Assembly: GCF_038637725.1 (NCBI RefSeq)
Contig: NZ_CP152052.1
Coordinates: forward strand, 727,501 to 791,500
Source: Psychrobacillus sp. FSL H8-0483
GTDB taxonomy: Bacteria; Bacillota; Bacilli; Bacillales_A; Planococcaceae
Direction of reading: 5' to 3'
DNA: 64,000 bases
Shown here: positions 32,640 to 52,715 of the stretch, one piece after another
Layout of the letters: every line of letters starts with the position of its first letter
Numbering within the stretch: the first letter of the stretch is position 1
The notes under the pieces: model-generated
What the model saw: only the letters and a program-made list of their open reading frames with translations
Databases searched by the model: none
What the model was told of the DNA's origin: nothing
Made by a program: the position numbers and the translations under genes

Positions 32640-32649
32640 CCTTTTTTAA

Positions 32650-32873: not shown

Positions 32874-35800
32874 ATGAGAGCAAGCAAGAAACTTCGCCAA
32901 AAATCGTATCGAGCTGCGTTGGCAACAACGTTGGCAGCTGGATCACTTGTCGCGGCAGCACCAATAAACATGAACGTGGCAGAAGCACAAGAGGTTTTCT
33001 TCAAAGATGTAACAGATAGCCAGTATTTCTACGAAAGTGTAAAAGAGTTAACTGCTAGAGGATTTATTAGTGGATATGAAGACGATACATTTAGACCTGC
33101 TGAAAATATTACTCGAGGACAGGCTGTGAAAATAATTGCCCTTGCATTAGGGTTAAACACAGAGAACGTAAAAGATCCTGGGTTTAAAGATGTGAGTAAA
33201 AGTAATCCTTACTATGCTTATATCGCAGCACTTGTAGATGCAGGAATTATTAAAGGGTATGAAGACGATACATTTAAACCAAACGGGAATCTAACTCGAG
33301 CACATATTGCTCAAATGCTAGTAGTAGGTTTTGGGTTAGAGGAAGAGAAACTCTCAAACCTACCATTTAAAGATATTAATAATAAACAATGGTATGCACA
33401 TTATATCCAAACCTTATTTACAAATAAAATAACAACAGGTAAAACAGCTACTACATTTGAACCAAATGCATTTGTAACACGTGGACAAGCTGCCGCTTTT
33501 ATTTATAGAACAGAAGCAGCTGTTGAACTACAAAATGTAAAAGTAATAGATATCTCTAAAAACGAATTGACCTTATCTAATGGAAAGTATGCATTGAATC
33601 CAAGCTTGCAAGGCATATTTAACGAGTCGAATTTAGCCGTGTTAAAAGGTGCAAAAGTTAAGTACACATTGAAAAATAATGAGATTGTGGACATTAGTTT
33701 GATTGAAATTAGAGCAAATGGAACTGCAAATGGTTATCTTGTACTTGATGGGAAAGGTTCTACATTTGCAGGTGAGCTTTCTATAAAAGGTAATTATGTA
33801 TCGGTTAAAAACCTTACGTTGTCGGTATTAAACATACAATCTGGAGCTACTCATGTAACGTTGGACGCGAAAGTTGGTAAATTAAACATCCAATCGAAGG
33901 ATGCCAAAGTCTCATTAGGAGCTAATGCAAGAGTGGGAGACCTTATTCTTCCAACAGGAGTAAAAGCGAAAGATATAATCCTAGACTATGAAAAAGTAAA
34001 GGGAAATATCGTCAAAATTAATGGCGCAGCAAACCCTGATATAAAACCAGTGACACCACCAGCAAGTAATGGCGGCGGAGGTAGTGGCAGTGGAAATGGA
34101 AATAATCCACCTCCAGTTACTGAAGATAAAAACTTTGAATTATCCCTGATGCATTTCAACGATACACATGCCCATTTAGATAATGCTGCGAAACGTGTAA
34201 CAGCAGTGAACGAAGTACGCGCTAAAAAACCAAACGCATTACTACTAGATGCAGGCGATGTTTTCTCTGGAACATTATACTTTAATGAATTCAAGGGACA
34301 AGCAGATTTAGAATTTATGAATCTAATGAAAGTCGATGCAATGACGTTTGGTAATCATGAATTCGATCTTGGTTCATCTCCTGAAGGCCACAAAGCATTA
34401 GCAGATTTCATTAAAGCAGCAAATTTCCCGTTTGTATCAGCAAACGTAGACTTCTCAAATGATGCGTTGTTCACTGGATTGTTTAATACCAAAATATCAA
34501 ACGCTCCAAAAAAAGGTAACATTTATTCAGGTATTGTAAAAGTAGTGAATGGCCAAAGGGTTGGAATTTTTGGTTTAACAACTGCCGATACGAAAGATAT
34601 CTCTAGTCCTGGAAGCATTACATTCTCTAACTATATTGAAGATGCGAAAAAGATGGTTGCTGAATTTGAAAAAATGGGTGTTAACAAGATCGTTGCTATC
34701 ACACATATCGGCTATGACGATAATCCAGCAGTTGATAATGACATCGAGTTAGCGAAAGCAGTAAAAGGTATTGACGTAATTGTCGGCGGACATAGTCATA
34801 CAGCATTGGAAAAACCAGTTTTAATTAAAGCAAATGCTGAGCCAACAATTATCGTGCAATCAGGTCAATATGCTGACAATCTTGGTACGTTAGATATTAC
34901 GTTTAATAAAAAGGGTGTAGTTGTTGCACATGAAGGCAAGCTAATCAATGTTGCTGGGAAAACGGAAAACCCAGAAGCGGCTGCAATACTTAAAAAATAT
35001 GCTGATAAAATTGCAGAAATAAAAAATGAAGAAACTGGTGCAACTGCCGTAAATGCATTAGAAAACCCTCGCACTGGTGGGGATAATACAAAACCGAGTG
35101 TACGCAAAAATGAAACACCTTTAGGAAACCTGATCACGGATGGCATGCTGGCAAAAGCAAAAGAATATAACAAAGAAGTTGTCATGGCATTCCAAAATGG
35201 TGGCGGGATTCGAGAAGCTATTAATCAAGGACCTATTACAGTAGGTGAGGTAATAACTGTTCTACCTTTTGGAAATACATTAGCGACAATGAAACTTACA
35301 GGTGCGGAAATTAAAGCTGCATTTGAAATTAGCTTTAAAGAACTTCCACGTGAAAACGGAGGATTCCTTCATGTATCAGGTGCAAAAGTAGAATTTGATT
35401 CTTCTAAACCGAGTGGAGAGCGAGTCGTATCGATAGCTTATAAAAATGCAGAAGGTAATTATATCGCAATTCAAGATACTGAAAAGTACACAATTGCGAC
35501 GAATGCGTTCACAGCTAAAGGTGGAGATGGTTATGACGTACTGAAAAAAGCATACGAAGAAGGAAGAGTAACTGATCTAGGTCTTTCAGATTGGGAAAAT
35601 TTACGGGACCATGTCGTAAGCTTAGGTAATGTTGATCCGAAGGTAGAAGGACGAATTGTAGATGTTAAGGATGAACCTATTCCAGAAGAGTTTGAACTAT
35701 CCCTAATGCATTTCAATGATACGCATGCTCATTTAGATAATGCAGCAAAACGTGTAACAGCAGTGAACAAAGTACGTGCAGCAAAACCAAATGCATTGCT

Positions 35801-37487
35801 ACTAGATGCAGGGGATGTATTCTCGGGGACATTGTACTTTAATGAGTTCAAAGGACAAGCAGACTTAGAGTTTATGAATTTAATGAAAGTCGATGCGATG
35901 ACGTTCGGTAACCATGAATTCGATCTTGGTTCATCGGAGGAAGGTCATAAAGCGTTAACAGACTTCATTAAAGCGGCAAACTTCCCGTTTGTATCAGCTA
36001 ACGTGGATTTCTCAAATGATGCATTGTTTACCGGTTTGTTTAATACGAAAGTCTCGACCACTCCTGAAAAAGCGAACATCTATTCAGGTATTGTCAAAGA
36101 AGTGGACGGAGAAAAAGTAGGGATTTTCGGTTTAACAACAGCGGAAACCAAAGACATTTCAAGCCCTGGTAGCATCACATTCTCTAATTATATTGAGGAT
36201 GCAAAAAGAATGGTTGCTGAGTTTGAGGCAATGGGTGTCAATAAGATCGTTGCCATTACACATATCGGCTATGATGATAATCCAGCAGTAGATAACGACA
36301 TCGAGTTAGCAAAAGCAGTTGAGGGTATCGATGTAATTGTCGGCGGACATAGTCATACAACATTGGCAGAACCAGTTCTGATTGGTGTAAATGATGAACC
36401 AACAATAATCGTTCAAACAGGTCAATATGCAGATAATCTAGGAACACTTGATGTAACGTTTGATAATAATGGTGTAGTTGTAGAACATGCAGGGAAATTG
36501 ATAAAAATTGCAGACCAAACAGCGGATCCTGAAGCAGCAGCATTACTTAAGAAATATTCTGATAAAATTGCAGAAATATCAAATGAAGAATCTGGTGCAA
36601 TTGCTGTAAAAGCAATAGAAAATCCACGTGCAGAGAATAATAGTGTTCGAAGAAATGAAACTCCACTAGGAAACTTAATCACGGATGGCATGCTTAAGAA
36701 AGCAAAAGTATACAACAAAAATGTAATCATGGCGTTCCAAAATGGTGGGGGAATAAGATCGTCTATTAATCAAGGTCCTATTACGATCGGAGAAATAATC
36801 ACGGTTCTTCCATTCGGAAATACACTAGCAACAATGGACTTAACAGGAGCAGAAATCAAAGAAGCATTTGAAATTAGCTTCAAAGAACTCCCAGGTGAAA
36901 ATGGTGGATTCCTACATGTTGCTGGTGCAAAAGTGAAATTTGACTCTTCTAAGCCAGTTGGACAACGTGTCGTATCGATTGCCTATAAAAATGCAGATAA
37001 TATATATACTCCAATCCTTGATGATGCAACTTACACAATTGCAACAAACGCATTCACAGCTAAAGGCGGAGACGGCTATACAGTACTCAAAAAAGCTTAC
37101 GAAGAGGGCAGAGTTACCGATTTAGGTTTATCAGATTGGGAAAATCTTCGTGAGCATCTTGTAAGTCTAGGTAACGTAGATCCAATAGTAGAAGGACGCA
37201 TTGTCGATGTAGTTGGAGAACTTCCTGGTGGAGATGTACCAGCTACAGATTTCTCTGGTACACCTGAAAAGCTAAAAATATACAATGGCGACGTTACAGT
37301 AGACGTTCAAGACGTATCCTTCCTTGGTAATGTAATTATCAAAGGAAACTTAATCATTGTTGGTACATCCACTGCAAACATTTCTCTTGGAAACATGATT
37401 GTAGAAGGGGACTTGGACCTATCAGGACATGAAGGCAACGTTTACGGACTAGAAGATATCGAAGTATACGGAGAAACAATTTTTTAA
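32874..37487 (+). CDS. SLH-anchored tandem 5'-nucleotidase / cyclic phosphodiesterase
   Basis: 1537 residues. Signal peptide (KSYRAALATTLAAGSLVAAA), three SLH domains (to about residue 215), a beta-rich linker with a Gly/Ser-rich hinge, then two complete UshA-type modules starting at about residues 420 and 939. Each has HFNDTHAHLD, DAGDVFSGT, GNHEFDLGSS, THIGYDDNPA and GGHSHT for the two-metal site, and the substrate-binding domain with NGGGIR and AKGGDGY. The modules are exactly 519 residues apart and very similar in DNA, so the second is a recent internal copy. A short beta-rich tail follows. Expected activity: release of nucleosides and phosphate from nucleotides at the cell surface. Start ATG behind AGGAGG. 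A related gene begins at 60612. Confidence 0.9.
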   Translation: MRASKKLRQKSYRAALATTLAAGSLVAAAPINMNVAEAQEVFFKDVTDSQYFYESVKELTARGFISGYEDDTFRPAENITRGQAVKIIALALGLNTENVKDPGFKDVSKSNPYYAYIAALVDAGIIKGYEDDTFKPNGNLTRAHIAQMLVVGFGLEEEKLSNLPFKDINNKQWYAHYIQTLFTNKITTGKTATTFEPNAFVTRGQAAAFIYRTEAAVELQNVKVIDISKNELTLSNGKYALNPSLQGIFNESNLAVLKGAKVKYTLKNNEIVDISLIEIRANGTANGYLVLDGKGSTFAGELSIKGNYVSVKNLTLSVLNIQSGATHVTLDAKVGKLNIQSKDAKVSLGANARVGDLILPTGVKAKDIILDYEKVKGNIVKINGAANPDIKPVTPPASNGGGGSGSGNGNNPPPVTEDKNFELSLMHFNDTHAHLDNAAKRVTAVNEVRAKKPNALLLDAGDVFSGTLYFNEFKGQADLEFMNLMKVDAMTFGNHEFDLGSSPEGHKALADFIKAANFPFVSANVDFSNDALFTGLFNTKISNAPKKGNIYSGIVKVVNGQRVGIFGLTTADTKDISSPGSITFSNYIEDAKKMVAEFEKMGVNKIVAITHIGYDDNPAVDNDIELAKAVKGIDVIVGGHSHTALEKPVLIKANAEPTIIVQSGQYADNLGTLDITFNKKGVVVAHEGKLINVAGKTENPEAAAILKKYADKIAEIKNEETGATAVNALENPRTGGDNTKPSVRKNETPLGNLITDGMLAKAKEYNKEVVMAFQNGGGIREAINQGPITVGEVITVLPFGNTLATMKLTGAEIKAAFEISFKELPRENGGFLHVSGAKVEFDSSKPSGERVVSIAYKNAEGNYIAIQDTEKYTIATNAFTAKGGDGYDVLKKAYEEGRVTDLGLSDWENLRDHVVSLGNVDPKVEGRIVDVKDEPIPEEFELSLMHFNDTHAHLDNAAKRVTAVNKVRAAKPNALLLDAGDVFSGTLYFNEFKGQADLEFMNLMKVDAMTFGNHEFDLGSSEEGHKALTDFIKAANFPFVSANVDFSNDALFTGLFNTKVSTTPEKANIYSGIVKEVDGEKVGIFGLTTAETKDISSPGSITFSNYIEDAKRMVAEFEAMGVNKIVAITHIGYDDNPAVDNDIELAKAVEGIDVIVGGHSHTTLAEPVLIGVNDEPTIIVQTGQYADNLGTLDVTFDNNGVVVEHAGKLIKIADQTADPEAAALLKKYSDKIAEISNEESGAIAVKAIENPRAENNSVRRNETPLGNLITDGMLKKAKVYNKNVIMAFQNGGGIRSSINQGPITIGEIITVLPFGNTLATMDLTGAEIKEAFEISFKELPGENGGFLHVAGAKVKFDSSKPVGQRVVSIAYKNADNIYTPILDDATYTIATNAFTAKGGDGYTVLKKAYEEGRVTDLGLSDWENLREHLVSLGNVDPIVEGRIVDVVGELPGGDVPATDFSGTPEKLKIYNGDVTVDVQDVSFLGNVIIKGNLIIVGTSTANISLGNMIVEGDLDLSGHEGNVYGLEDIEVYGETIF
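34134..37210 (+). repeat. Internal 1557-base tandem duplication
   Basis: The coding sequence from 34134 recurs from 35691 with the same order of motifs, long stretches of identical DNA and mainly third-base changes. It includes the linker between the modules. Confidence 0.85.
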
Positions 37488-37589
37488 TTGATTTGAAGCA
37501 GATAGAATAGGCATCTCCTATTGTTTAAAAAATCTGCAAAAAGAGGTGCCTAGAAATACTAGAATGAATAAGCTAGAGGAGGATAAATA

Positions 37590-40500
37590 TTGAAACAACA
37601 AAAACGTAAAATTTCCTTGTTTCTCATCTTTATTATGATTGTCAGTCTCATTAATCCAAATTTGATAAACAAGACTATGGCAGCAACTTTCGTGGAAAAC
37701 TTTAATAATATTAATATTGCCGGAACTAGTTATATTAATGGCAGTTTTATAGGAGAAAATGACATAGTGTGGTCCTATAGCGGTGCTAGGGAAGCAACAG
37801 GAAATGAAATTGATGGTAAAGGTATTTTATTTAGAGATACAGGAAAGTATATTGAATCTAATTCCATTGAGGGAGGCATAAGCTCCTTTTCAGTGAAGTT
37901 TAAGAAAGCATTTACAGGAGCGGGAGAACGTAAGGTAGAAGTATTTATTAATGGTCAATCTATTGGGATATCTCAAGGTTTTGATGACACAGAGATTCAT
38001 AATTTTTCTGTTGATAATGTAAATGTGGAAGGTCCTTTTACAATAAAAATCACTAATGCTTCTCCAGGAAATAAACAAATAGTTTTAGATGATATTATAT
38101 GGTCAAGTAATGACAATCAAGAGCCCGAAAAAGTATCAACAATATCAGCAACTGTTTCGCCCGGTCAAGTAAATGTTGGAACGATAGTGGAGTTATCAAC
38201 AAACACAGATGGTGCAACAATCTACTATACAACCGATGGTTCAGATCCAACGAGTTCAAGTGTGAGATATGAAGCTCCGATTGTTATCGATAAGGACATG
38301 ACGATCAAGGCGATAGGAGTGAAGGAAGGTCTTGAAAACAGTTCAATTGCTGAGTTCGCTTATACAGTAATAAGTGAATCAGGAATATTGTCCATTGCTG
38401 AAGCACGCGCTACAGCTGTTGGTGAAACTGTGACGATTAAAGCGATAGTAGCTGCGAACTTGAAAAATACTATTTCTGTACAAGATGCAACCGGAGGTAT
38501 TGCAGTTCGTCCTGCAAATCTATCTGCGACAGTAGGCGATGAAGTAACCCTTACTGGTAAACTAGGAGAATTCCGTGGACTTCTTCAATTAGATGGAGCA
38601 ACCATCGTTGAAAAAACGGAAAATGTCGGAGCACCAACTCCTAAAGTTGTTACAGGTGCAGAAGTAAATGAAGCCAATGAATCGCTTCTTGTGCAAGCAA
38701 AACAAATTACAATAACTGCAGTAAATGCATTAAACTATTCAGCAACTGATGGAACTACTGAATTCATCGTTCGTGATGAAAACAATTCACTAGGTCTAAG
38801 TGTAGGTAAAACGTATGAATCAACTACTGGTATCGTGCAACAGTTCGATGCAGCTTATCAAATCATTCCACGATCTATTCAAGATATTGTAGAAGATAGC
38901 ACCACACTACAACCGGTTGCAGCAAATCCTGGAAGCGGTACGTTTGTAGGTGGTACAACCGTAACATTATCCACAACAACGGCAAATACAGAAATTTATT
39001 ACACAATAGATGGTTCAGAACCGACGAATGCAAGCACAAAGTATACAGCACCAATCGAAATTAAAAAAAATACAACGCTTAAAGCTGTAGCAATTACGGC
39101 AGATGGCACTGCAAGTGAAGTAAAGACTTTCGAGTATGTCATTACAGATAGTCTTCAAATTCATGACATCCAAGGAGCAGGACACTTTACTTCTTTTGAC
39201 AATAAATCAGTAGAAGGAATTCAAGGGGTAGTAACCTATTCATTTACCTTGAATGGGTCAAATTATTATCATATCCAAACGCCAGATGAGTTAGCGGATA
39301 ATAATCCAAACACATCGGAAGCAATCCTTCTTTATAGCGGTAATAAATCTTTAACAGTAAAAGTTGGAGACTTAGTATCAGTTACAGGGAAAGTAAGTGA
39401 ATTTGCATACGACGGATATGATGATCGTCAACAAACAGACTTGAAAACTACCCAAATCAATGTTCGTGATGATCAAGGTGGAAAAGTGGAAGTCATTAAA
39501 AGTGGCGTAGCTTTACCAGCTCCAATCTTAATTGATGAAACTAAAATGTCTTTAGCTAAAATTGATAGCGACAATCTTACAGTTTTCAATCCAACAGTGG
39601 ACGCAATCGATTTCTGGGAAAGTATCGAAGGAATGCGCGTGCAAGTTGGAAATGTGAAAGCGGTAGCACCTCAAGAGCATGGCGATTTGATTACGGTTTT
39701 AGAAAATGCACCTACGAACTCCCTTCATGGCGGTGTATTATATGAAAAAACTAATCAAAATCCAAATCGTATTCAATTCCGTTTAGAACCAAACGGACCG
39801 GGACGTGATTTTGAAGTAGCGACAGGTGATAAATTTAGTGGTCCGATTACTGGAGTGGTAGGCTATTCATTCCAAAACTTTAAAATCTATGTCTCTTTAA
39901 ACGAAATGAATGCTGCCCATACAAAAGGAACTGCAACACCAGAAAAAACAACCATTGTGAAAACAGAAGATAAGTTAACGATTGCTTCCTATAACTTAGA
40001 AAACTTCTCGAATAACAGAACATCCACTTCAGACGACAAAGCACGTAAATTAGCAAGAGCAATTGCTACGGATATGCAAAGTCCTGATATTGTTGGTGTA
40101 ACAGAAGTGCAAGATAATAACGGTGAAAGTACAGGGGATTCAAAAGCAGATCAAAGCTATGGTAGATTAATTGCTGCTATAAAAGCTGCAGGTGGACCAG
40201 AGTATAAATATGTAAATATTGACCCTGTGAACAACCAAGACGGTGGAGCACCGAATGCGAATATTCGTGTTGGATTCCTATACAATCCAGAACGAGTTAA
40301 ATTAACGGAAGGTATTTCTGCTGGGGATGCTACAACTGCTGTAGGTTACGAAAATGGTAAGTTAACACTTAACCCGGGTCGTATTGATCCAAAAAATAGT
40401 GCATTTAACAGTAGCCGTAAACCGTTAGCTGCACAATTTGATTTCAAAGGGGAAAGCGTCATTGTGATTGCGAATCACTGGAATTCAAAAAATGGTGATA

Positions 40501-42248
40501 CACCTCTATTTGGATCGATTCAGCCACCAAAATACGACAGCGAAGTACAACGTAAAAAAATTGCAAAAATAGTTTCTGACTTTGTTGTAGATATTAAAAC
40601 GAAAAAACCAGATGCAAACATTGTATCTTTGGGTGACTTTAACGATTATCAATTTGCCGATGCACTTTTAATTCACGAAGGCGAACAGATGACAAACATG
40701 ATAAACAAAGTAGAAACACCAGATCGTTACACATATCTATATCAAGGGAACTCACAAGTGCTAGATCATATTTTAGTCACGAAGAATTTAGAAAGCAAAA
40801 CAAAAATCGATATTCTTCATATCAATGCAGACTTCACGGATATGGCAGGTCGTGCTAGTGATCATGATCCAGTAATGGTTCAAATTGATATATTAGCCGA
40901 AGATGAAGTTGTAGTACCGATCGTAGCTGAAAAAACATACAATATTAAAAATCTGCAAACGATGAAATTAACAATTGGCAAACCTAGCGTTTCTATTACG
41001 CTGGATAACCATTCGCTCATTTCAGAAGGCATTCTTTTCACAGGGGCTTATGCAGAATTCCACGGAGCAGGATTTGCAGAGCATACTGTAACGATCAAAC
41101 CAGTAAATGCTGGGGCGATTTTAGATTTCAAAGGAACAGTAATGAAAAAGGTTATTATTGATGGGACTAATGTAAAGGAAATAAGAGGCGCTGAAAATAT
41201 TCAAGAAATTGAATTCATTAACGGTGCAAATCCAGATACGATTAAATTCACAAATTCGAAAGGGGAGCCCATTGAGGTTCCTTCTTTTCCAGGTGAAAAT
41301 AAAGCACCGGTAGTAAAAAGAAGTATTCCAAATCAAACAATTAAAGTCGGAGAATCCATTTCGATCTTACTAACAGATCATTTTGCAGACCCTGAAAACA
41401 AAGCACTAACTTTTACTTCTACATTAGGAACGATAGAAGGTTCTACGTTAAGCCTAACTCTAGGTGAAGGAAGCCATATTGTAGGGGTTACTGCTACAGA
41501 TGGTGAAAAAAGTGTAACGACAAGCTTCAGTGTGAGTGTAACATCTAATGAAGTTCCAACAGATGATTATTACAAAGACGCATTCGGCAAAGAGGGGCAA
41601 GCATTAAAAGATGCCTTACATGAAATTATTGATGAGCACACTCTACTATCATACGACAAAGTCTGGGACGCATTGCGTGAAACAGATGAAGATCCAAATA
41701 ACTCAAATAACATCATTTTGTTCTACTCTGGACTATCGCGCTCTAAAACTAGTAATGGGGGGAACGTAGGCCAGTGGAATCGAGAACATACATGGGCGCA
41801 ATCACATGGCGGTTTCGGTACAAGTCAAGGACCTGGTACTGACATCCACCATTTGCGTCCAACAGATGTACAAGTGAACAGCACCAGAGGGAACTTAGAT
41901 TTTGATAACGGGGGAAGTCCTGTTAATAATTGTAATGGGTGTTATAAAGATGCGGATTCATTTGAACCATCTGATCGTGTAAAAGGCGATGTCGCTCGAA
42001 TTTTATTCTATATGGCAACACGCTATGAGGCTGGAGATAGAGTGGACCTCGAATTAAATGATAGAGTCAATAACGGAAGTATCCCTTTCCACGGCAAATT
42101 ATCCGTTCTTTTACAGTGGCATGAGCAAGATCCAGTCGATGAATTTGAAACAAAACGCAATAATGTCATTCAAAAATGGCAAGGCAACCGCAATCCATTC
42201 ATTGACCACCCAGAGTGGGTAAATTCCATATGGAAAAAAGCAAACTAA
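37590..42248 (+). CDS. Secreted multidomain nuclease: OB folds, EEP domain and endonuclease I
   Basis: 1552 residues, TTG start behind AGAGGAGG, signal peptide to about residue 30. Order: an N-terminal beta domain; a chitobiase-C-like module (IYYTTDGSDPTSSSVRYEAP, about 180-257); an OB fold (about 263-340); a second chitobiase-C-like module (about 443-517); an OB fold (about 523-620); an endonuclease/exonuclease/phosphatase domain (about 794-1103: IASYNLENF, GVTEVQDNNG, ANHWNSKN, SLGDFNDYQF, ASDHDPVMV); an Ig-like module; and endonuclease I (about 1328-1552: WNREHTWAQSHGG, DIHHLRPTDVQVNSTRGNLDF). The EEP half resembles ExeM/NucH nucleases. Both catalytic sets look intact. No SLH or LPXTG anchor. 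It probably degrades extracellular DNA, feeding the neighbouring 5'-nucleotidases. Confidence 0.87.
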   Translation: MKQQKRKISLFLIFIMIVSLINPNLINKTMAATFVENFNNINIAGTSYINGSFIGENDIVWSYSGAREATGNEIDGKGILFRDTGKYIESNSIEGGISSFSVKFKKAFTGAGERKVEVFINGQSIGISQGFDDTEIHNFSVDNVNVEGPFTIKITNASPGNKQIVLDDIIWSSNDNQEPEKVSTISATVSPGQVNVGTIVELSTNTDGATIYYTTDGSDPTSSSVRYEAPIVIDKDMTIKAIGVKEGLENSSIAEFAYTVISESGILSIAEARATAVGETVTIKAIVAANLKNTISVQDATGGIAVRPANLSATVGDEVTLTGKLGEFRGLLQLDGATIVEKTENVGAPTPKVVTGAEVNEANESLLVQAKQITITAVNALNYSATDGTTEFIVRDENNSLGLSVGKTYESTTGIVQQFDAAYQIIPRSIQDIVEDSTTLQPVAANPGSGTFVGGTTVTLSTTTANTEIYYTIDGSEPTNASTKYTAPIEIKKNTTLKAVAITADGTASEVKTFEYVITDSLQIHDIQGAGHFTSFDNKSVEGIQGVVTYSFTLNGSNYYHIQTPDELADNNPNTSEAILLYSGNKSLTVKVGDLVSVTGKVSEFAYDGYDDRQQTDLKTTQINVRDDQGGKVEVIKSGVALPAPILIDETKMSLAKIDSDNLTVFNPTVDAIDFWESIEGMRVQVGNVKAVAPQEHGDLITVLENAPTNSLHGGVLYEKTNQNPNRIQFRLEPNGPGRDFEVATGDKFSGPITGVVGYSFQNFKIYVSLNEMNAAHTKGTATPEKTTIVKTEDKLTIASYNLENFSNNRTSTSDDKARKLARAIATDMQSPDIVGVTEVQDNNGESTGDSKADQSYGRLIAAIKAAGGPEYKYVNIDPVNNQDGGAPNANIRVGFLYNPERVKLTEGISAGDATTAVGYENGKLTLNPGRIDPKNSAFNSSRKPLAAQFDFKGESVIVIANHWNSKNGDTPLFGSIQPPKYDSEVQRKKIAKIVSDFVVDIKTKKPDANIVSLGDFNDYQFADALLIHEGEQMTNMINKVETPDRYTYLYQGNSQVLDHILVTKNLESKTKIDILHINADFTDMAGRASDHDPVMVQIDILAEDEVVVPIVAEKTYNIKNLQTMKLTIGKPSVSITLDNHSLISEGILFTGAYAEFHGAGFAEHTVTIKPVNAGAILDFKGTVMKKVIIDGTNVKEIRGAENIQEIEFINGANPDTIKFTNSKGEPIEVPSFPGENKAPVVKRSIPNQTIKVGESISILLTDHFADPENKALTFTSTLGTIEGSTLSLTLGEGSHIVGVTATDGEKSVTTSFSVSVTSNEVPTDDYYKDAFGKEGQALKDALHEIIDEHTLLSYDKVWDALRETDEDPNNSNNIILFYSGLSRSKTSNGGNVGQWNREHTWAQSHGGFGTSQGPGTDIHHLRPTDVQVNSTRGNLDFDNGGSPVNNCNGCYKDADSFEPSDRVKGDVARILFYMATRYEAGDRVDLELNDRVNNGSIPFHGKLSVLLQWHEQDPVDEFETKRNNVIQKWQGNRNPFIDHPEWVNSIWKKAN

Positions 42249-42252
42249 GTAC

Positions 42253-42292
42253 GTGCCAGTCACCCGCACAATTCAGAAACTATTCTGACAAT
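42253..42292 (-). repeat. REP-like element, GGGTGACTGGCAC family, copy 2
   Basis: On the minus strand it reads TTTCTGAATTGTGC then GGGTGACTGGCAC. It lies between the nuclease stop and the 3' end of the RAYT gene and is in opposite orientation to the copy on the other side of that gene. Confidence 0.8.
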
Positions 42293-42328
42293 AAAAATCC
42301 CACGATTGATTTCAATCGTGGGATTTTT
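42293..42328. terminator. Bidirectional terminator shared by the nuclease and RAYT genes
   Basis: AAAAATCCCACGATTGA pairs with TCAATCGTGGGATTTTT. The right arm overlaps the RAYT stop codon. Confidence 0.85.
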
Positions 42329-42902
42329 AACTGTTTTGCTCATCAGGCAACTCAGCCTCACAAAATTTGCAATAATCTTCATTTGTTTGGTTAAAAGATG
42401 TTGGAAGAAAAGTGGGGAGTATATGCAAATGCAGAAAAGGGTGAGTAGTGGACTTTGTAAGTTTGTAAAAAGCATAGGAACTATTTTCATATAGTTCCAT
42501 ATGAGAAACAATTGGCACCTTTGTTTCGATCGGATTTCTGTGAATATATCGACTTACAGCAAGAATGCTTCGTGGGCTAATAAGGAGTTCCGCAAAATAC
42601 CGACTATCGTAGAGAAATCCGCTCGTATTATACCTTTTCTTATAGTACTCACTATAGCGGCGATTGATAATACTCATTATTTTACCTAACGGCACTTCCG
42701 GTGACTGAATAAGCAGATGATAGTGGTTCGTCATTATACAATACGCAACAATTGAAAATGGGTATTTATCGTAAGCATAGTGAAAAATGCGAAACAACTC
42801 TCGCAAATCATCACTATTCCGGAAAATATTCTGCCTATTATTCCCTCTCATTACCACGTGATAATACATGTTCGGATGCCAGTGTCTACGTTTCCTACCC
42901 AA
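42327..42902 (-). CDS. REP-associated tyrosine transposase (RAYT, Y1 family)
   Basis: 191-residue single-strand DNA transposase of the IS200/Y1 superfamily. The N-terminus RKRRHWHPNMYYHVVMRGNN, the metal-binding HUH-type motif TNHYHLLIQ and the catalytic-tyrosine helix RRYSEYYKKRY, followed by GFLYDSRYFAELL and YIHRNPIE, match the RAYT branch. The start is TTG with GGAGGGGG 7 bases upstream. It has no IS200-type ends of its own; instead REP-like elements in opposite orientations lie on both sides. Such proteins are considered domesticated agents that mobilise REP sequences. The C-terminal tail has a CxxC pair (YCKFCEAEL). Confidence 0.88.
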   Translation of the reverse strand: MGRKRRHWHPNMYYHVVMRGNNRQNIFRNSDDLRELFRIFHYAYDKYPFSIVAYCIMTNHYHLLIQSPEVPLGKIMSIINRRYSEYYKKRYNTSGFLYDSRYFAELLISPRSILAVSRYIHRNPIETKVPIVSHMELYENSSYAFYKLTKSTTHPFLHLHILPTFLPTSFNQTNEDYCKFCEAELPDEQNS

Positions 42903-43406
42903 CCTCTAACCCCCTCCTCATTACTAAACCCCTATAGAAATTAATAAATACAGAATAAAAGGACTAAGGATTAAAGTCAATTGTACAAAAGTGTAGACAA
43001 TTCAATTTTAGAGCGATTTAGACAACCAAAATTAATTTTCCCTTCAAAAGACACAATTCGACCCAAAAAATATTTCGGTCGAATTGTGCCTAAATTGTGT
43101 GAGTATTGTGTGAGTGACTGTCACCAAAAGTAGACCAAAAGTATTGTGCTTTCATGAGGTGTGAGTTGTTTCAAAAAGAGAGGAATTATGGTGACAGAAA
43201 TATGTATGAAACCGGTCTAAACGAACTAAAACTATTTAACTAACCGTTTTCTAATAGAATCTTTTGTTACCAAAATGTAACATAATATATTATTCCAAAT
43301 AATCCGAATATATGGTAAGTTTCTATTGTCACATAATTTAGTAGGGAGTTTAATAGATTTGTAGATTCCGATTAAATTATGAACCACGAATAGGGAGGAA
43401 AGTAAA
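42903..43406. other. Intergenic region between RAYT and the first protease
   Basis: It contains a REP-like element and hairpin (43052-43125) and probable promoter sequences for the protease: TTGTTA then TATATT near 43264-43291, overlapping the inverted repeat GTTAC-N6-GTAAC at 43266-43281. The remainder is AT-rich with no coding frame. Confidence 0.5.
43052..43125 (+). repeat. REP-like element, GGGTGACTGGCAC family, copy 3
   Basis: A perfect 12-base hairpin (CACAATTCGACC/GGTCGAATTGTG) leads into CTAAATTGTGTGAG and GAGTGACTGTCACC. The part from GAATTGTGCCTAAATTGTG recurs at 47382. It lies upstream of the RAYT gene. Confidence 0.75.
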
Positions 43407-46400
43407 TTGGGGATTAAGAGAAAAAGTATGTTACTCGCTCTTGCTGGAACCTTAGTAATAAGCACCGCTTCTTTCGGTGCACCAGTTCCAACAGCCGCCA
43501 ACGTATTGGCGAAACAGATTCCACCGCTTCAATTGCAAAAGTCGGCAACCACAGTACCTCAGCAACTGATTGCTCCAAAAAATCCAAGTGAAACTGTTCG
43601 CATCATCGTGGAGCTAGAAAAAGCACCTGCGATTGAGACGGCTACCAAAAAAGGTGTCCTTTACAAGAACCTTCCTAAGTCACAACGAAAAAGCGTGGAA
43701 GCATCTATTGAAGCAGATCAAAAAAATGTAAAAGAAAAAGTGAAACAAAAGTCAAAAAAAATTAAATTCAAAGAAGAATTTACAGCTGTCTTCAATGGAT
43801 TCTCAGCCGAAGTTGAAGCGGGAGATGTCGCAGCCATCGCGGAAACGGAAGGTGTAAAAGCAATCTATGAGTCTACAGAATATACGAGACCAAATATTGA
43901 GCCAAACATGGTCCACTCGAAAGAATTAATACAAGCTCAATTGGCTTGGGAAAAATATGACTTCAAAGGTGAAGGAATGGTAGTCGGTGTAATTGATACG
44001 GGTATCGATCCAAGTCATCGCGATATGATTTTAACGGATGATGCATCCGGTGACATTACTGCTTCTGAAGTGGAAGCTTTAATTGGAGACGGTTCTATTG
44101 AATCAGGTAAATACTACTCAGCCAAAGTTCCTTACGGTTATAACTACATGGATGGAAACCTAGAAATACGGGATCTTGGACCAGATGCTTCCATGCATGG
44201 GATGCACGTTTCTGGAACAGTTGGAGCGAATGGTGATGAAGAAAATGGAGGGATCAAGGGAGTAGCTCCTGAAGCTCAACTTTTAGCACTTAAAGTATTT
44301 GGTAATGATCCATTATTCTCTTCAACATATGGAGATATTTACGTAAAAGCGATGGACGATGCGATTAAGCTCGGCGCAGATGTGTTGAACTTGTCACTTG
44401 GATCGACTGCGGGTTATGTGGATAACAGTAACCCTGAACAGCAAGCTGTTACACGGGCACAAGACAATGGACTGCTAGTGGCCATTTCTGCGGGTAATTC
44501 AGATATGTTTGGTTCCGGTTACTTCTATCCAATGGCTGAAAATCAAGATTATGCGTTAACAGGTTCACCTTCTGTTTCGGAAGATTCATTTGGTGTGGCA
44601 TCGTTTGAAAATAGTACGATCACGGCTTCCAGTTTTAAATACAAATTTGATAGTGTGGAATCTGGTCGTTCACTGTTCTTACTTGCAAATGACCAAAATC
44701 CAAACGATCTTCCTGAAGAGGAATATCAAATTCAATTCGCAGGTTTAGGTAGCCCTACTGACTTTGAAGGGAAAGATTGGACAAACAAATTTGCATTAGT
44801 AGCTCGTGGATCGTTTTCTTTCGTTGAAAAAGGACTAAATGCACAAGCTGCTGGTGCTGCTGGTATCATCGTATATAACAATGCTGCAGGAACAATTAAT
44901 ATGGCATCTGACCCAGCGATCGATATTCCGTTCATGTCCACGCTTCAAGCGGATGGATTAGCGATCAAAGCAGGGCTTGATGCTGGACAAGTCGTTTCAG
45001 TTGGATTCGACGGTCAGTATTTAGAAACACCAAGTCCGACTGCAGGAAAAATGAGTTCATTTACGTCTTGGGGTCCTACACCGAATTTAGATTTCAAACC
45101 TGAAATCACAGCACCGGGTGGAAACATCTTCTCGACATTAAATAACGATTCCTACGGTTTGATGAGTGGAACTTCAATGGCAGCTCCACATGTATCAGGT
45201 GGTACGGCGCTTGTGATGGAACGCGTGAACGAAGAGTTCGGATTAACTGGTGCAGCACGTGTTCAATTAGCGAAGAATTTAATGATGAATACAGCTTCGA
45301 AAGTTATATTTGCTGAATACGACGGTATTACTGAATATGTATCACCACGTCGTCAAGGTGCAGGTATCATGCAACTTGCGAATGCTTTGGAAACTGATGT
45401 TGTGGTGACAGACAAAGTAACTGGTGAAGCAAAAGTAGCACTAAAAGAAATAAGTAATGGCCAATTTAACTTCACTTTAACAGCGAAAAATTACTCAGAC
45501 GTAGAGAAAAACTATAATGTAGACGTTCAGCTTCAGACGGATTATGCATTAACTACATCTGGATATGATGTCGTTGTACCAAATATTGCAGGATCTAACG
45601 TTGTTACGGATGCTGTAAATGTAGATGCACCTGAAACGGTTGTTGTTCCTGCAAATGGGGAAGTGGAAATTCGAGTATCTGTTGATGCGTCTGCATTGAA
45701 AGACATGGATGGCTTTGAAACATTCGTAAACGGATTCTTCATTGACGGATTCGTTTCTCTTATTGACCCGAACGAAGAAACAACAGGAACCGTACCATTA
45801 ACAGTACCTTTCTTCGGATTTAATGGTTCGTGGGATGACGCATCCATTTTTGACTACTTTGCATGGGAAGCAGAAAATTATTATGGCATGCAAGCTTTAG
45901 CTGATGAACAAGGAAACTTGATCCTTGGACCAACCTATCGTGAAGGTATTGACCCATCGAAATTCGCATTCTCTCCAAATGGTGATGGCAATGTGGATAA
46001 GGCAATTCCTGTTTACTCTCTAATGCGTAACGCGAAAAAATTTGAAGTAAATATATTGGATGCAGAAGGCAATAAAGTACGTACAATTCGTACAGAAAAC
46101 AATTTAACTAAACATTACTCGGCTACAGCACCTAACTTACCATACACGTACAATCCTGTTTATGGGTGGGATGGATTAATTAATGGAAAAGTAGCTGTAG
46201 ATGGACAATACCAAATTCAGCTACGAGGAGTCATTGATTTTGAAGGCGCAGAATGGCAATCCATTGAATTCCCAATCATCGTGGATACAGTGAAACCTAC
46301 AGCAGACGTAAGTTATGACAAGAAAAAACAAGTCATCTCCATTGCTAAACTTTCGGATAACCAAACAGGTATCGGTATTGACCGCGTAGAAGTCCTTTTG

Positions 46401-47198
46401 AATGGTGAAGAAGTGGCAGAAGCGGCAAATATTGAAAAGTACACATTTGAGGAAAAAGTTGCTAAGGATGACAAAATTGAAGTTAGAATTTGGGACATTG
46501 CTGGTAATGTTACAGCAAAAGAGTTTAAAGGACACGGAAAATCGACAGATGAAGTAGGAGTAGAAGATCCTGCAGACGAAGGTACTCCGGGCGAAACAGA
46601 TCCAGGCAGTGAAGATGACTCAACTCCTAATGAGCCAGAGACAGTTGAACCAGTCATCTATATCAATACACCTGAATTCTTCAGCCACCATACAGCATCT
46701 GAAGTATTGGTTGCGGGGACTATTGAAGACGATTCTAATATTGCATCATTAAAAGTCAATGGACAAGACGTAACAACTTTTGATGGTGAAAACTTTACGC
46801 ACACATTGATTCTTGAAGACGGTGTACAACTTATCAATGTGGAAGCGATTGACGAGTTCGGAAATGTAATGGCGATCACACGCAGAATTTTCGTTGATAC
46901 GACAAAACCAACTGTGCAAGCTGTTTCTACAACCGTTCCGAAAAACGTTTCATCGAATCAAGGAAATCCCGTCATTCAAGTGAATGTGGGCGACAATTTC
47001 GATGAAATCCGCCTTTACCTTAATGGAAGTGAAGTTTACTACAAACCAATTTCTGAACCATATGCAATGTTAGGTTATAGCCAGACAATTGATATCGAAC
47101 TTCCATTGGTTACTGGTAATAACACATTTGAATTAAAAGTGGTGGATCTTGTAGGTAACGAAGCTAAGCAAATCATCAAAGTGTCAAAGAAAAAATAA
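43407..47198 (+). CDS. Secreted subtilisin-family (S8) protease, lactocepin/C5a-peptidase type
   Basis: 1263 residues, TTG start behind GGGAGGAAA, with a signal peptide ending near PTAA. An I9-like propeptide is followed by the S8 catalytic domain: Asp in VVGVIDTGID (about 198), His in MHGMHVSGT (about 266), oxyanion Asn in AISAGNSD, Ser in SGTSMAAPHVSGG (about 588). A PA domain is inserted before the Ser (about 430-530: FALVARGSFSFVEKG). After the protease come Fn3-like domains, an acidic linker and two beta modules with VNGQ or LNGSE phrases. There is no SLH domain or sorting signal, so it is free or held otherwise. Likely role: degrading extracellular protein or maturing surface proteins. 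Confidence 0.9.
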   Translation: MGIKRKSMLLALAGTLVISTASFGAPVPTAANVLAKQIPPLQLQKSATTVPQQLIAPKNPSETVRIIVELEKAPAIETATKKGVLYKNLPKSQRKSVEASIEADQKNVKEKVKQKSKKIKFKEEFTAVFNGFSAEVEAGDVAAIAETEGVKAIYESTEYTRPNIEPNMVHSKELIQAQLAWEKYDFKGEGMVVGVIDTGIDPSHRDMILTDDASGDITASEVEALIGDGSIESGKYYSAKVPYGYNYMDGNLEIRDLGPDASMHGMHVSGTVGANGDEENGGIKGVAPEAQLLALKVFGNDPLFSSTYGDIYVKAMDDAIKLGADVLNLSLGSTAGYVDNSNPEQQAVTRAQDNGLLVAISAGNSDMFGSGYFYPMAENQDYALTGSPSVSEDSFGVASFENSTITASSFKYKFDSVESGRSLFLLANDQNPNDLPEEEYQIQFAGLGSPTDFEGKDWTNKFALVARGSFSFVEKGLNAQAAGAAGIIVYNNAAGTINMASDPAIDIPFMSTLQADGLAIKAGLDAGQVVSVGFDGQYLETPSPTAGKMSSFTSWGPTPNLDFKPEITAPGGNIFSTLNNDSYGLMSGTSMAAPHVSGGTALVMERVNEEFGLTGAARVQLAKNLMMNTASKVIFAEYDGITEYVSPRRQGAGIMQLANALETDVVVTDKVTGEAKVALKEISNGQFNFTLTAKNYSDVEKNYNVDVQLQTDYALTTSGYDVVVPNIAGSNVVTDAVNVDAPETVVVPANGEVEIRVSVDASALKDMDGFETFVNGFFIDGFVSLIDPNEETTGTVPLTVPFFGFNGSWDDASIFDYFAWEAENYYGMQALADEQGNLILGPTYREGIDPSKFAFSPNGDGNVDKAIPVYSLMRNAKKFEVNILDAEGNKVRTIRTENNLTKHYSATAPNLPYTYNPVYGWDGLINGKVAVDGQYQIQLRGVIDFEGAEWQSIEFPIIVDTVKPTADVSYDKKKQVISIAKLSDNQTGIGIDRVEVLLNGEEVAEAANIEKYTFEEKVAKDDKIEVRIWDIAGNVTAKEFKGHGKSTDEVGVEDPADEGTPGETDPGSEDDSTPNEPETVEPVIYINTPEFFSHHTASEVLVAGTIEDDSNIASLKVNGQDVTTFDGENFTHTLILEDGVQLINVEAIDEFGNVMAITRRIFVDTTKPTVQAVSTTVPKNVSSNQGNPVIQVNVGDNFDEIRLYLNGSEVYYKPISEPYAMLGYSQTIDIELPLVTGNNTFELKVVDLVGNEAKQIIKVSKKK

Positions 47199-47235
47199 GT
47201 TTCAAATAGACAAACTAATTAGTTATGGGATAAAA

Positions 47236-47276
47236 AGTAAACCTCTTTTCCGTTTAGGAAAAGGGGTTTATCTTGT
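47236..47276 (+). terminator. Terminator of the first protease
   Basis: GTAAACCTCTTTTCC pairs with GGAAAAGGGGTTTAT (one wobble), 5-base loop, followed by CTTGTTTTT. Confidence 0.85.
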
Positions 47277-47381
47277 TTTTATATGGAGATTTCCCAGGTT
47301 TTCTACTTTTCATAGTTTTAGCCAAAGTAAAGCTTAAAACCTAGTACATAAACTATTAAAATCAGACACTTAAACGCTTGT

Positions 47382-47416
47382 GAATTGTGCCTAAATTGTG
47401 TGGGTGACTGTCACCC
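47382..47416 (+). repeat. REP-like element, GGGTGACTGGCAC family, copy 4
   Basis: GAATTGTGCCTAAATTGTG followed by GGGTGACTGTCACCC. It matches copy 3 for nearly its entire length apart from a short insertion in copy 3. Confidence 0.8.
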
Positions 47417-47614
47417 ATAAGAACCCTCAAGTATTACGAATAATAGTAGACAAGTAATCATACAAATTAGATTAAGGGTAATAGTTTAGTTCGAACAACT
47501 AGTTGTGAAGAATACTAGACTGTTATCTTTACATTTGTTTTCTGTACTTGTGCTGCAATTTTACTATCATTTTTAGTTGGATCGCAGCAACTATTGGTAA
47601 GGGGGAAGAATCTA

Positions 47615-50600
47615 TTGAAGAAGAAACAGTTTACTAGGTTATTTAGTGCATTCATGGTATTGACCATGATCTTCGCACTATTGGCTCCAATGAATGCGTT
47701 TGCGAACACAGATGCAAAACCGTTCAAACAAAGCGTTCCAAGAGAAAGCACGCTGCAAATGAAGGCAGCTATCGCTGAACAATTAGTATTGACGGACAGT
47801 GGACCAACACTTCACAAAGATCTACAAGGTTTGTCAGGAGATGAAGAGGTAGCGGTTATCGTTCATTTATCGGAGAAACCAGTAGCGCTTGAAAAAGGAA
47901 TCAAAGAATTAGCAGGAAAAAAATTCACTAGTGCAGATGCAAGTACAGTGAAGTCAAAAGTGATTGCGCAGCAATCATTTATCATAAAAGAAATGCAATC
48001 AAAGGCAGTAACATTCACGCAAGGGTACTCCTTTGATACAGTTTTAAATGGCTTTGCAGCAACTGTAAAAGCCGACGATCTTACAAAATTACTTGGAATT
48101 AAAGGTATTACATTAGTAGAACCAGATGCGACAGTGTATGCATTTGAAGACTCAAGTGAATCAGCACCATCTAAACTTGAAAAAGATGGCCAAGTAGATG
48201 CTGCGATGAATACAAGCATTTCGTTCCTTGGAATTGAAAGACTTTGGAACGAGGGAATTGAAGGTCAAGGCATTAAAGTTGCAGTACTTGATACAGGAAT
48301 CGATGCAGATCACCCAGAGTTTGCGGGAATTTATAAAGGTGGTAAGAACTTTATCCCGAACTCATCTGTCTATACAAGAACACGTTCGGCTGATGATGCA
48401 TCGGAAACTTCTCCTGTAGAACGTCCAGCGGGAACTCCTGAGTTTAATGAAAGAGGAAGTGCATTCTATACTTCTCACGGTACGCATGTTGCAGGTACAA
48501 TCGCAGCAATTGGCGCGAATGAATACGGCATTAAAGGGATTGCGCCTAAAGTTGATCTTTACGCTTATCGCGTGCTTGGAGCTTATGGAAGTGGATCTAA
48601 TTCTGGTATCGTAAAAGCGATTGACACTGCTGTAATTGAAAAGATGGATGTTATCAACTTATCTCTAGGTGGAGGATCAAACTCTGAAACGGATGCAGGC
48701 TCCTTTGCGATCAACAACGCAATGATGGCGGGGACAATAAGTGTACTTGCAACTGGTAACGATGGACCTAATCGTGGAACAATATCTCCTCCGGCTACAT
48801 CACGTTTAGGTATTGCAGTAGGGAACACAACAAACCCTGAGAAAATGCATAACGGTAAGGTAAATGTAACTGTCGGGGATTATACTCTTTCTAAACAACT
48901 ACAATTGATGGGAACTACTTTTGGGAAAGACTTAGCAACACAACTTCAAGGTGAGTTTGACGTAGTTGCTGTTCCTGGAAACGGGGAAGCAAAAGATTAT
49001 AATGGAATCAATGTGACTGGAAAAGTTGCTCTGATCTCTCGTGGTAGCATTGCATTTGTCGATAAAATTGCACATGCAAAAGCAAACGGAGCAGTAGGAA
49101 CAATCATTCACAACTCTCAAACTGGATCCAATGCACCAAATGAATCTGGTGTGTTCCTAGGTGATTCATTTGAATTCGTTCCAACGTTCGATATGTCATA
49201 CACAGACGGTGTCGCAATCCGTGCAGCATTAGTAAATGGGGCAGGAAAAGTTACTTTTGGTAATTTTGCTTCAGCAAAAACAATTGGTGATGATGTAAAT
49301 GATTCAAGTTCACGTGGACCAACCACACCTAACTTTGACATCAAGCCAGATGTAAGTGCACCTGGTACGAACATTATGTCAACGATTCCAATGTACAAAG
49401 CAGACTTTCCAGATGCTGTTTACGGTGAAGCATATGACCGTAAAACGGGTACATCGATGGCTACACCGCATGTCACAGGGATCGCAGCACTTGTAAAACA
49501 AGCGAATCCTGATTGGAATGCTTTTGACGTAAAAGTAGCCCTTTCTAACACAGCGAAAATCCTTGATACAACGAAATACGATGTATTCGCACAGGGTGCA
49601 GGTCGTGTAGATGCATATGCAGCAGCTCATCCTGCGGCACTTGCATATGCAATTGACGAGGCTGTGCTAGATGCAGATGGTGAAATAGTTGAAAACTTAA
49701 AAGGGACTGTTACATTTGGTCCGCAATCTTTAGAGGAAGATATTACAGTTACAAAGGAAATACTAGTCAAAGATATTAAAGGTATCGGCGGAGATTATAA
49801 CGTAACAGTAGATGTAACCAAAGAATTTGGCAATGCAACAGTAACTGTCGATAAACCATCCTTTACATTAGATGGAGAAGAATTGTTGAAAGTAACATTA
49901 ACAGCTTCCAAATCAGAAGCTACAGAAGCTGGTGATGAAATTCTAGGATATATTCACATTACGCCAGCAGATGAAACTAAAACTGAAACCTCCCTTTCTG
50001 TAGATAAAACAGAATTGAACATGAAAACAGGTGACAAACTTCAACTGAATGTAATAGAAACAACAACACCAGTAGAAAGTGAATACACGGAAATTTCATT
50101 GCCATTTGCAGCAGACTTTGGTGGTGCAGCAGTAACTGAAATCAAAGATATGGCTATAACAGAAACAGACTTATCGTTTGATGGAGACGGTGTGCAAGAT
50201 GCAGCTGAGCTGACATTTAGGTTGACAGGTGAGGTTGGACTTCACTTCGTCGAAGTTTGGGATGTCATGAATCCTGATGGTGGAGAATTTGGTGACGGCT
50301 ATCTTGGTTACTTATATGGAAATAATTCACTAGGTGCGGGATCTTGGAAACTACCGATTAACGGTATATACCAGCCTTGGAGTGGAGAACCTCTAACAAT
50401 TATTCCAGATGGTTTGTATACATTTGACTTCAATGCGTACGACGATAATCTTTCTGATTACGTGGGACCAATTGTCGTTAAAACTACTAGCCCAGAAATT
50501 ACTGGTACGGTAACAGAAGGCGTGGTAACAGGGCAAGTAACAGACAAATATATCGAATACAATGAAGAATTATATTTATATGGTTTAGAGTACGATTTGA

Positions 50601-51991: not shown

Positions 51992-51999
51992 GGTTGCAC

Positions 52000-52042
52000 G
52001 GTACCAGGTTCAAAACAGTTAATGATATGAGAACCTGGTACC
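52000..52042. repeat. GGTACCAGGTTC inverted repeat
   Basis: Perfect 12-base arms GGTACCAGGTTC and GAACCTGGTACC separated by 19 bases, directly after the protease stop. It resembles the GGTGCC palindromes in style but not in core sequence. Confidence 0.75.
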
Positions 52043-52060
52043 ATTGGATAAATAAAAATC

Positions 52061-52100
52061 AAAAACCTCCATCAGTCTATTTAGATTGATGGAGGTTTTT
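52061..52100 (+). terminator. Terminator of the SLH protease
   Basis: AAAAACCTCCATCA pairs with TGATGGAGGTTTTT, the inner TCT/AGA extending the stem, and a T tract follows. Confidence 0.9.
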
Positions 52101-52137
52101 TGAATTGTTTCTAAATTGAGTAAGTGACTGTGGTCAC
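52101..52137 (+). repeat. REP-like element, GGGTGACTGGCAC family, copy 5
   Basis: TGAATTGTTTCTAAATTGAG then TAAGTGACTGTGGTCAC: a diverged copy of the elements at 43089 and 47382, directly abutting a terminator. Confidence 0.6.
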
Positions 52138-52230
52138 TCGAAAAATCCACGATCAAAACGGTAAACTATTCATCACCTTATTCTTTATCTTCCTCATAAT
52201 TCTGCTTTTCATTTTGCCATCAATAAATGG

Positions 52231-52278
52231 GTGATGTGTGGGTGACTGGCACGTTGAAGGTCACTGGCACTTTGAAGG
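52231..52278 (+). repeat. REP-like element copy 6 with an 18-base tandem repeat
   Basis: GTGTGGGTGACTGGCAC is followed by two tandem 18-base units, TGACTGGCACGTTGAAGG and TCACTGGCACTTTGAAGG, which differ at two positions. Confidence 0.7.
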
Positions 52279-52571
52279 TCAAAATTTTGTCAGTCCCCCG
52301 GAGATAGTAAACACTTTTTTTGTAAGCTTTTATTTTATTACACTCTTTCATATCCTTTGAATCGTACAAAAAAATAAATAACAAGATTGTATCAAAAGTA
52401 ACAATAAATTGTATGGTGCGAAAGTATACCAAGGGAATCATCCAAAAGTAGAATACTGAAAAGTCAAAAATTACCCGTTCGAGGGAGGCTGAATTGTTTG
52501 GCGCTGTTTATACTGAAGTTAGTTCCATTGCATGGTGATCAAAACGAAAACGAAGTCTAAGGAGGCACTGA

Positions 52572-52715
52572 ATGACATAAAAAGAGGAGCTTAAATCTAG
52601 AATTGAATATCAAGCAAAAAGTGGCATTATAATTCTATTATCTATCGCTGTTACAGGCTAAGAAACTAAATTTGCAATGAGAGACTTAGCCAAGGAATTC
52701 TCTAAAGTGGGGTAA
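52572..52715 (+). pseudogene. Decayed small gene upstream of the TasA-like gene
   Basis: A strong AAGGAGG site precedes ATG ACA TAA. Reading through, the frame continues as KEELKSRIEYQAKSGIII, then LLSIAVTG, a second TAA, then ETKFAMRDLAKEFSKVG and a stop. The composition is coding-like and both internal stops are TAA, one change from AAA or CAA. Beyond it, another frame continues with coding-like residues (NVTFEVKQLSD, then EMVHGTKSPLAQVNF) broken by TAG and TAA. I do not recognise the family. Its position at the head of the TasA/SipW locus suggests a lost member or regulator. Confidence 0.5.

Follow-up and report, generated by a model that had tools for sequence, protein, structure and literature searches.

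Introduction

Does a transposase gene that lies between two inverted copies of a short repeat in Psychrobacillus sp. FSL H8-0483 form, together with these repeats, a REP-RAYT system of the kind described in proteobacteria? In the available text of Nunvar 2010, RAYT genes carry inverted REPs on their flanks, RAYTs and REPs co-evolve, REP number correlates with the gene, and in four proteobacteria REPs accumulate within at most 200 kb of it (PMC2817692). According to the available text of Quentin 2018, which sorts TnpA-Y1 proteins into classes, REP sequences flank five subclasses, with double-foot REPs in subclass 2.4; none is recorded there for subclasses 2.1 and 2.3, and the word Firmicutes is absent from the main text (PMC6006769). 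The same word is missing from the main text of a 2013 paper reporting GTAG and CGTC repeats from 8 phyla (PMC3733652). Among the literature matches listed, we found no earlier account of a Gram-positive case or of the repeat letters given here, and RAYT/REPIN papers may contain one.

We analyzed a window of 64,000 nucleotides (727501-791500 of a chromosome that is one contig of 4,136,829 bases), which a preliminary description had read as a complete Gram-positive RAYT with the REPs it mobilizes. Our analysis, which found two RAYTs and two repeat families, gives good support to a REP-RAYT system in Bacillota: the locus is very probably a REP-RAYT (REPtron-like) system in which RAYT-A would act on type A repeats and RAYT-B on type B repeats.

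Results

A Y1 transposase gene bordered by inverted repeats

The transposase gene of the preliminary description, RAYT-A, was recovered by Pfam at the same place (Table 1), and a scan at E up to 1 found Y1_Tnp as the sole Pfam domain of the protein. Its catalytic motifs are HYH (H60, H62) and Y119-IHR-NP, and H60, H62, Y119, N123 and P124 are conserved without exception across the 23 homologues aligned; this is the class 2 signature (HUH plus Y-x-x-x-NP), shared with class 2 in the available text of Quentin 2018 (PMC6006769). Set against that classification, the proteins encoded by the 36 frames that we measured are short, at 185-207 aa, and RAYT-A has the Y1 domain only. The top solved relative in a profile search is E. 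coli TnpAREP (4er8, E 4.6e-4), the NCBIfam model REP_Tyr_transpos scores 65.6 bits, under its cut-off of 80, and the structure of RAYT-A is predicted with a mean pLDDT of 91. At the Pfam cut-off the genome holds two Y1 genes, RAYT-A and RAYT-B, each in single copy.

The closest relatives of RAYT-A that we found lie in Ureibacillus and Lysinibacillus, mostly at 58-62% identity, compared with 49-53% within its own genus. We do not claim a horizontal gain from this, since its own genus contains one intact relative of RAYT-A (G001) and decayed ones (G001, G010), which makes patchy loss as likely. Origins from a plasmid or a phage were rejected, as no close relative appeared among the 13 plasmid records matched (best identity 37%) or in the 1 phage record matched (identity 32%).

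Table 1. Position of RAYT-A, repeats and terminator-like hairpins, counted from the first base of the window
Feature	Position	Strand	Remarks
RAYT-A, Y1/HUH transposase gene	42327-42902	minus	191 aa, TTG start; Pfam Y1_Tnp E 1.8e-18
Type A, 3' side of RAYT-A	42253-42292	minus	TTGTCAGAATAGT block, GAATTGTGCGG foot, GTGACTGGCAC core
Type A, 5' side of RAYT-A	43082-43125	plus	core GTGACTGTCAC at 43114-43124
Type A	22751-22790	minus	divergent foot (3 mismatches); has TTGTCAGAATAGT block
Type A	47382-47416	plus	core GTGACTGTCAC
Degenerate type A	52101-52131	plus	adjoins terminator-like hairpin
Type A and core-only copy	52231-52270	plus	type A 52234-52252, then core-only 52260-52270
Type B palindrome	2692-2740	no strand	centre 2716; cognate RAYT-B outside the window
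Type B palindrome	22830-22878	no strand	centre 22854
Type B palindrome	32600-32648	no strand	centre 32624; imperfect right arm
Type B palindrome	60345-60393	no strand	centre 60369; imperfect arms
Terminator-like hairpin	42292-42329	plus	beside the left type A repeat
Terminator-like hairpin	47237-47271		about 110 nt ahead of the type A copy at 47382
Terminator-like hairpin	52061-52100		adjoins the degenerate type A copy at 52101

The two type A copies bordering RAYT-A are mutually inverted, as had been described, and the left element, from 42253 on, reads GTGCCAGTCACCCGCACAATTCAG on the plus strand. The four further copies named in the preliminary description were also found, one of them degenerate, and all type A copies in the window lie outside predicted ORFs, in keeping with the intergenic position claimed for them. 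The count of six repeats is right for type A but missed four type B palindromes. In our scan for terminator-like hairpins, which covered 41500-53500, two copies adjoin one and a third lies near one.

Searching the genome with TTGTGTGNGTGACTGNCAC at up to 3 mismatches gave 15 matches versus 1 for the reversed pattern, so the type A repeats are not a product of chance. At up to 2 mismatches there are 8 copies, all between 769.7 and 907.4 kb, with 7 of the 8 within 35 kb of RAYT-A; type A is thus local and not, as a genome-wide enrichment would have it, spread over the genome. With about 9 copies of type A and 27 of type B, copy numbers are on the low side for REPs. The hairpins of type A fold only weakly, at -1 to -7 kcal/mol in 5 copies, and the tetranucleotide ahead of the core is GTGG in four of the nine copies, GTGA in two and another in three. 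By eye, the TTGTCAGAATAGT block stands 5' of the foot in 2 type A copies here, with like blocks at several loci of other species. No strand bias was seen among the type A copies (4 plus, 5 minus), and Rfam found no RNA family at the repeats.

A second RAYT and a two-armed palindrome

RAYT-B, the second Y1 gene of the genome, lies at 927 kb, 157 kb from RAYT-A, to which it is 51% identical. A search of the genome gave 28 matches to the core GTGCCTGGCAC compared with 0 for its reversed control; 27 of these cores belong to type B and one (907388) to type A. Type B, TTACAGnnnTGTTACnG-GTGCCTGGCAC-CnGTAACAnnnCTGTAA, spans about 47 bp and is nearly palindromic, one arm being decayed in some copies. 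The tetranucleotide is mostly ACTG, ACAG or ACGG, and type B does not conform to the GTAG/GTGG tag, which counts against a REP-RAYT reading.

Across 197 distinct type B copies, almost all from the type B-rich genomes of the genus and, with orthologous ones included, not all independent, complementarity between the arms reaches about 23 bases out from the centre even as the letters vary. At distance 14 the arms pair in 136 of the 197 copies, through four pair types, compared with 64 expected by shuffling, and this covariation fades at 24-26 bases from the centre. Type A copies with core GTGCCTGGCAC were excluded from this set, and a few lone cores from type B-poor genomes were kept. With the 27 type B copies of the present genome alone, pairing is found in 20 versus 10 expected at distance 14 and in 23 versus 13 at distance 15, the excess being clear at these two distances and smaller at others. 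Such covariation suggests that what is conserved in type B is a folded strand, either DNA or RNA. In 3 copies the fold predicted under DNA parameters is strong (-18 to -27 kcal/mol).

RAYT-B has one and the same gene as its upstream neighbour in 7 of 7 regions, indicating that RAYT-B stays put. Within the flanks of RAYT-B, the exact core was found on the 5' side only, at 8 loci (L050-L053, L059, L061, L066, L067). On these points the genome agrees with a REP-RAYT system: its Y1 genes are low in copy number, RAYT-B remains in place, and palindromic repeats in many copies lie between genes.

Repeat types follow the RAYT lineage

Of the 19 genomes in the genus, 18 contain homologues of RAYT-A, and 16 named loci have them too, mostly loci of Ureibacillus, Lysinibacillus, Sporosarcina, Planococcus and Bacillaceae. 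At many of these loci the repeats share a common centre and differ in a foot that varies with the RAYT lineage. Ureibacillus, Lysinibacillus and Planococcus have AATTGTGTG or AATTGTTTG-like feet, the RAYT-B clade has TTACnG, and Mesobacillus and Bacillus have TGGAAG or TGGATG in pairs.

In a survey of retrieved RAYT loci, the core GTGNCTGNCAC was found within 450 bases of the RAYT, on either strand, at 26 of 55 loci (52 distinct), and on both sides at 17 of them, compared with 0 of 55 for the reversed control; the count is of presence, irrespective of the relative orientation of flanking cores. The other 29 loci are without this core, and several of them show other hairpins by eye. These 55 remained after 9 of 64 loci had been dropped for a decayed frame, a truncated hit, two outgroups and five duplicates (L072, L079, L090, L091, L082, L221, L223, L225, L232), and the duplicates still among them (L243, L242, L227) have no core.

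RAYT distance and repeat distance are correlated across 26 loci (Mantel r 0.60, 0 of 5000 permutations), with kinship still included in this value. Two RAYT lineages that share a genome and have different repeat feet speak for the same link. In whole genomes, TTGTNTGNGTGNCTGNCAC at up to 1 mismatch occurs 71 times in Ureibacillus sinduriensis and 20 times in L. sphaericus OT4b.31, with 0 control matches in each. Planococcus halotolerans speaks against a REP-RAYT reading, with 3 matches, all beside its RAYT, versus 2 for the control.

Repeat number and presence of the gene

The loss of repeats in relatives without a RAYT had been proposed as a check on the system. We surveyed 253 genomes of the family, 123 with a RAYT match of E 1e-30 or lower and 130 without, and called a count high at 30 or more cores and at least three times the control, thresholds of our own choosing. 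Counting the shared core GTGNCTGNCAC rather than the cognate repeat of each lineage, repeat number is linked overall to the presence of the gene: counts are high in 35 of the 123 genomes with a RAYT versus 4 of the 130 without (0 of 5000 within-genus permutations, kinship still included). In one genus (g8), all 8 genomes with the gene are high (33-314 cores) versus none of the 23 without it (15 or fewer), and most of the association is carried by this genus. Of the 11 genera containing both kinds of genome, g8 alone reaches P < 0.05 singly, the other ten showing no significant difference by themselves, and the proposed check comes out mostly in favour of the system; the one-sided P is 0.66 in g17 (40 genomes with the gene, 24 without) and 0.90 in the genus of the present genome, which has one genome without the gene.

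Several genomes count against a REP-RAYT reading. A high core count is lacking in 88 of the 123 RAYT-bearing genomes, some of which show other hairpins by eye, and is present in four without a RAYT match (G004, G174, G175, G183). Three of these four, G174, G175 and G183, have Y1 matches outside the results of the RAYT search, those of G183 containing stop codons. In G004, which belongs to the genus of the present genome, no Y1 match at all was found, yet it keeps 17 copies of GTGACTGGCAC, versus 7 in the present genome. All 17 were inspected: 1 has the type A foot and several stand in close inverted pairs, which gives them the look of orphaned repeats, most of them of another kind. G004 also has a different repeat, CCCTGTGTCAGACTCAAATG...TTGTGGCTGACACAGGGA (L246, L250, L254, L274).

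Within the genus, 8 genomes that have a RAYT-B of motif YIHxNP are rich in the type B core (28-45), and the other 11 have 0-5. Six genomes with a member of the YIHxNH clade of RAYT-B have 0 or 1 type B cores, three of them having another RAYT besides. Against the REP-RAYT reading, G005 (motif IP) and G010, G014 and G017 (NP) carry a RAYT-B yet have 0-5 type B cores. The YIHxNH sub-clade (G001, G006, G007, G013, G015, G016) is long-branched and has retained its open frame.

Intergenic position and a one-sided field

Seven regions around RAYT-B, where the coding fraction is 0.84-0.88, hold 110 cores, a single one of them type A. Of these 110, 107 lie between genes, which bears out the intergenic part of the enrichment that had been predicted. 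The preference is weaker near Lysinibacillus-like RAYTs, with 28 of 48 repeats intergenic over 16 stretches, in which mechanical ORF calls mark some repeats as coding.

Type B copies are unevenly placed around RAYT-B. In the 8 type B-rich genomes, whose ancestry is partly shared, 99 copies lie within 100 kb on the 3' side versus 12 on the 5' side, and beyond 5 kb from the gene the numbers are 96 versus 0; the copy at 907388 was excluded as type A, and draft contigs display less than 100 kb for G008 (49 kb) and G018 (77 kb) on the 5' side and for G011 and G008 on the 3' side. In nearly all 20-kb windows, GC skew and coding direction suggest that replication forks reach RAYT-B from its 3' side. 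RAYT-driven copying may be local and one-sided, with new copies made mainly on the fork-arrival (3') side of RAYT-B and the field preserving, like a fossil, the traces of cis-acting single-strand transposition coupled to forks, although we put this forward tentatively and regard it as rather doubtful.

A comparison of the closely related genomes G011 and G012, for which 33 of 35 copies were retrieved, found 18 copies at the same place with an exact core, 3 with a changed core and 1 lacking (58 bp), while 11 of the 33 had no resolvable site. Thus 21 of 22 resolvable sites are shared, and the one-sided field is partly inherited. We did not derive precise insertion boundaries from this pair, as its single clean size difference reads more like a deletion. 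In less close species, the spacer pairs 32/74, 74/75 and 30/31 contain the repeat in some and lack it in others, with absence stated only for the spacers read; such differences would fit gain and loss alike. Spacers of G009 and G002 hold repeat variants with a changed core. Repeat turnover seems to be slow, and the eight type B-rich genomes are not eight independent cases.

Discussion

By analogy with E. coli TnpAREP, we propose that RAYT-A, as a class 2 Y1/HUH single-strand nuclease-ligase retained as a single gene, would act on type A repeats, each made up of the foot AATTGTGTG at its 5' end and a small hairpin containing the core GTGNCTGNCAC. It would bind the folded repeat while the strand is single, as on the lagging strand at a fork, and then cut at the foot and join the ends, so that a new copy would be laid down very rarely, mostly nearby and between genes. 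Its paralogue RAYT-B would act likewise on the 47-bp type B palindrome. In this way a single-copy transposase probably copies short hairpin repeats around its neighbourhood. What we observed is the anatomy, the copy number, the intergenic position, the covariation of the type B arms, the match between RAYT lineage and repeat type and the overall link of repeat number to the gene; binding, cleavage, fork coupling and the mobilization of repeats by the enzyme are inferred.

The system might instead be inactive or domesticated, with the RAYT serving a host function such as hairpin processing at forks and the repeats being fossils or binding sites. The near identity of resolvable sites in G011 and G012, the fixed position of RAYT-B and the persistence of repeats in G004 would all suit this possibility. 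We nevertheless consider it unlikely, since site content differs among less close species and the RAYT-B sub-clade that lost NP is accompanied by hardly any type B repeats, which is what one would expect were they renewed by activity.

A second alternative takes the repeats as host terminators, attenuators or protein operators, among which the Y1 gene lies by chance. Their position between genes, some of them near terminator-like hairpins, is compatible with such signals, as is the strong fold of type B, whose arm covariation suits an RNA hairpin too. This explanation is improbable, however, because repeat counts track the RAYT overall and very clearly in g8, each RAYT lineage has its own repeat foot, and copies flank the RAYT at nearly half of the loci surveyed and at none in the control; it would also leave the clustering near the gene without explanation.

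IS200/IS605 elements are usually multicopy mobile units. Like that family, the present genes have a Y1/HUH core and would recognize hairpins, and RAYT-A with its two inverted flanking hairpin repeats has the outline of a whole IS200-like insertion sequence moving as a unit, but we reject this as highly implausible given that each Y1 gene is single copy, the motif is the NP of class 2 and not the Y-x-x-x-Q given for class 1 in the available text of Quentin 2018 (PMC6006769), lone repeats occur elsewhere, and the upstream neighbour of the paralogue RAYT-B is conserved between species.

The REP-RAYT reading invites comparison with the systems already described. As in the available account of proteobacteria, a Y1 gene lies between inverted palindromic repeats, RAYTs and repeats co-evolve and counts track the gene (PMC2817692); local clustering near the gene is not new, given the accumulation reported there. 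Unlike the proteobacterial systems, the host belongs to Bacillota, the core GTGNCTGNCAC is common to several genera while the foot differs between RAYT lineages, there is no strict GT(A/G)G head, the canonical GTAG/GTGG tag being partly present, copy number is low here, and type B is a two-armed palindrome. Among the literature matches listed, we found no earlier account of this atypical two-armed repeat, of a shared core with changing feet or of the one-sided field.

The repeats also resemble GTAG/CGTC REPs and TIRYTs, which in the available text of the 2013 paper combine short tagged palindromes with tyrosine transposases, TIRYTs bearing inverted repeats (PMC3733652). Membership among the TIRYTs was nonetheless rejected, as GGGGWSAS occurs on both sides of the RAYT at 0 of the 55 loci and on one side at 3, and RAYT-A, which alone was scanned (Pfam, E up to 1), has Y1_Tnp only, with no C-terminal HTH. 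GGGGWSAS-type inverted repeats were observed on both flanks of a Clostridiales RAYT relative, the outgroup L090, as in published TIRYTs.

The REP-RAYT partnership is thereby extended to a large Gram-positive family, in which the centre of the core is kept across genera and the foot changes with the transposase. One genome with two RAYTs and two repeat types, together with a genus where gene and repeats vary in step, offers a natural experiment for asking if REPs are made and maintained by RAYTs, and the one-sided field beside RAYT-B makes local, fork-coupled spreading testable.

Other features of the window

Four very large proteins of 1263-1552 aa, probably exported, are encoded in a row at 32874-51991: a 5'-nucleotidase with SLH, a protein with Exo_endo_phos and Endonuclease I, and two subtilases, one of them with SLH. 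Farther along lie a camelysin-like gene (52895-53494, PF12389), an ORF that by eye is signal-peptidase-like (54601-55212) and, downstream of both, a cyclic di-GMP-II riboswitch (56879-56962, Rfam RF01786, 73 bits), which together are perhaps a c-di-GMP-controlled extracellular matrix cluster.
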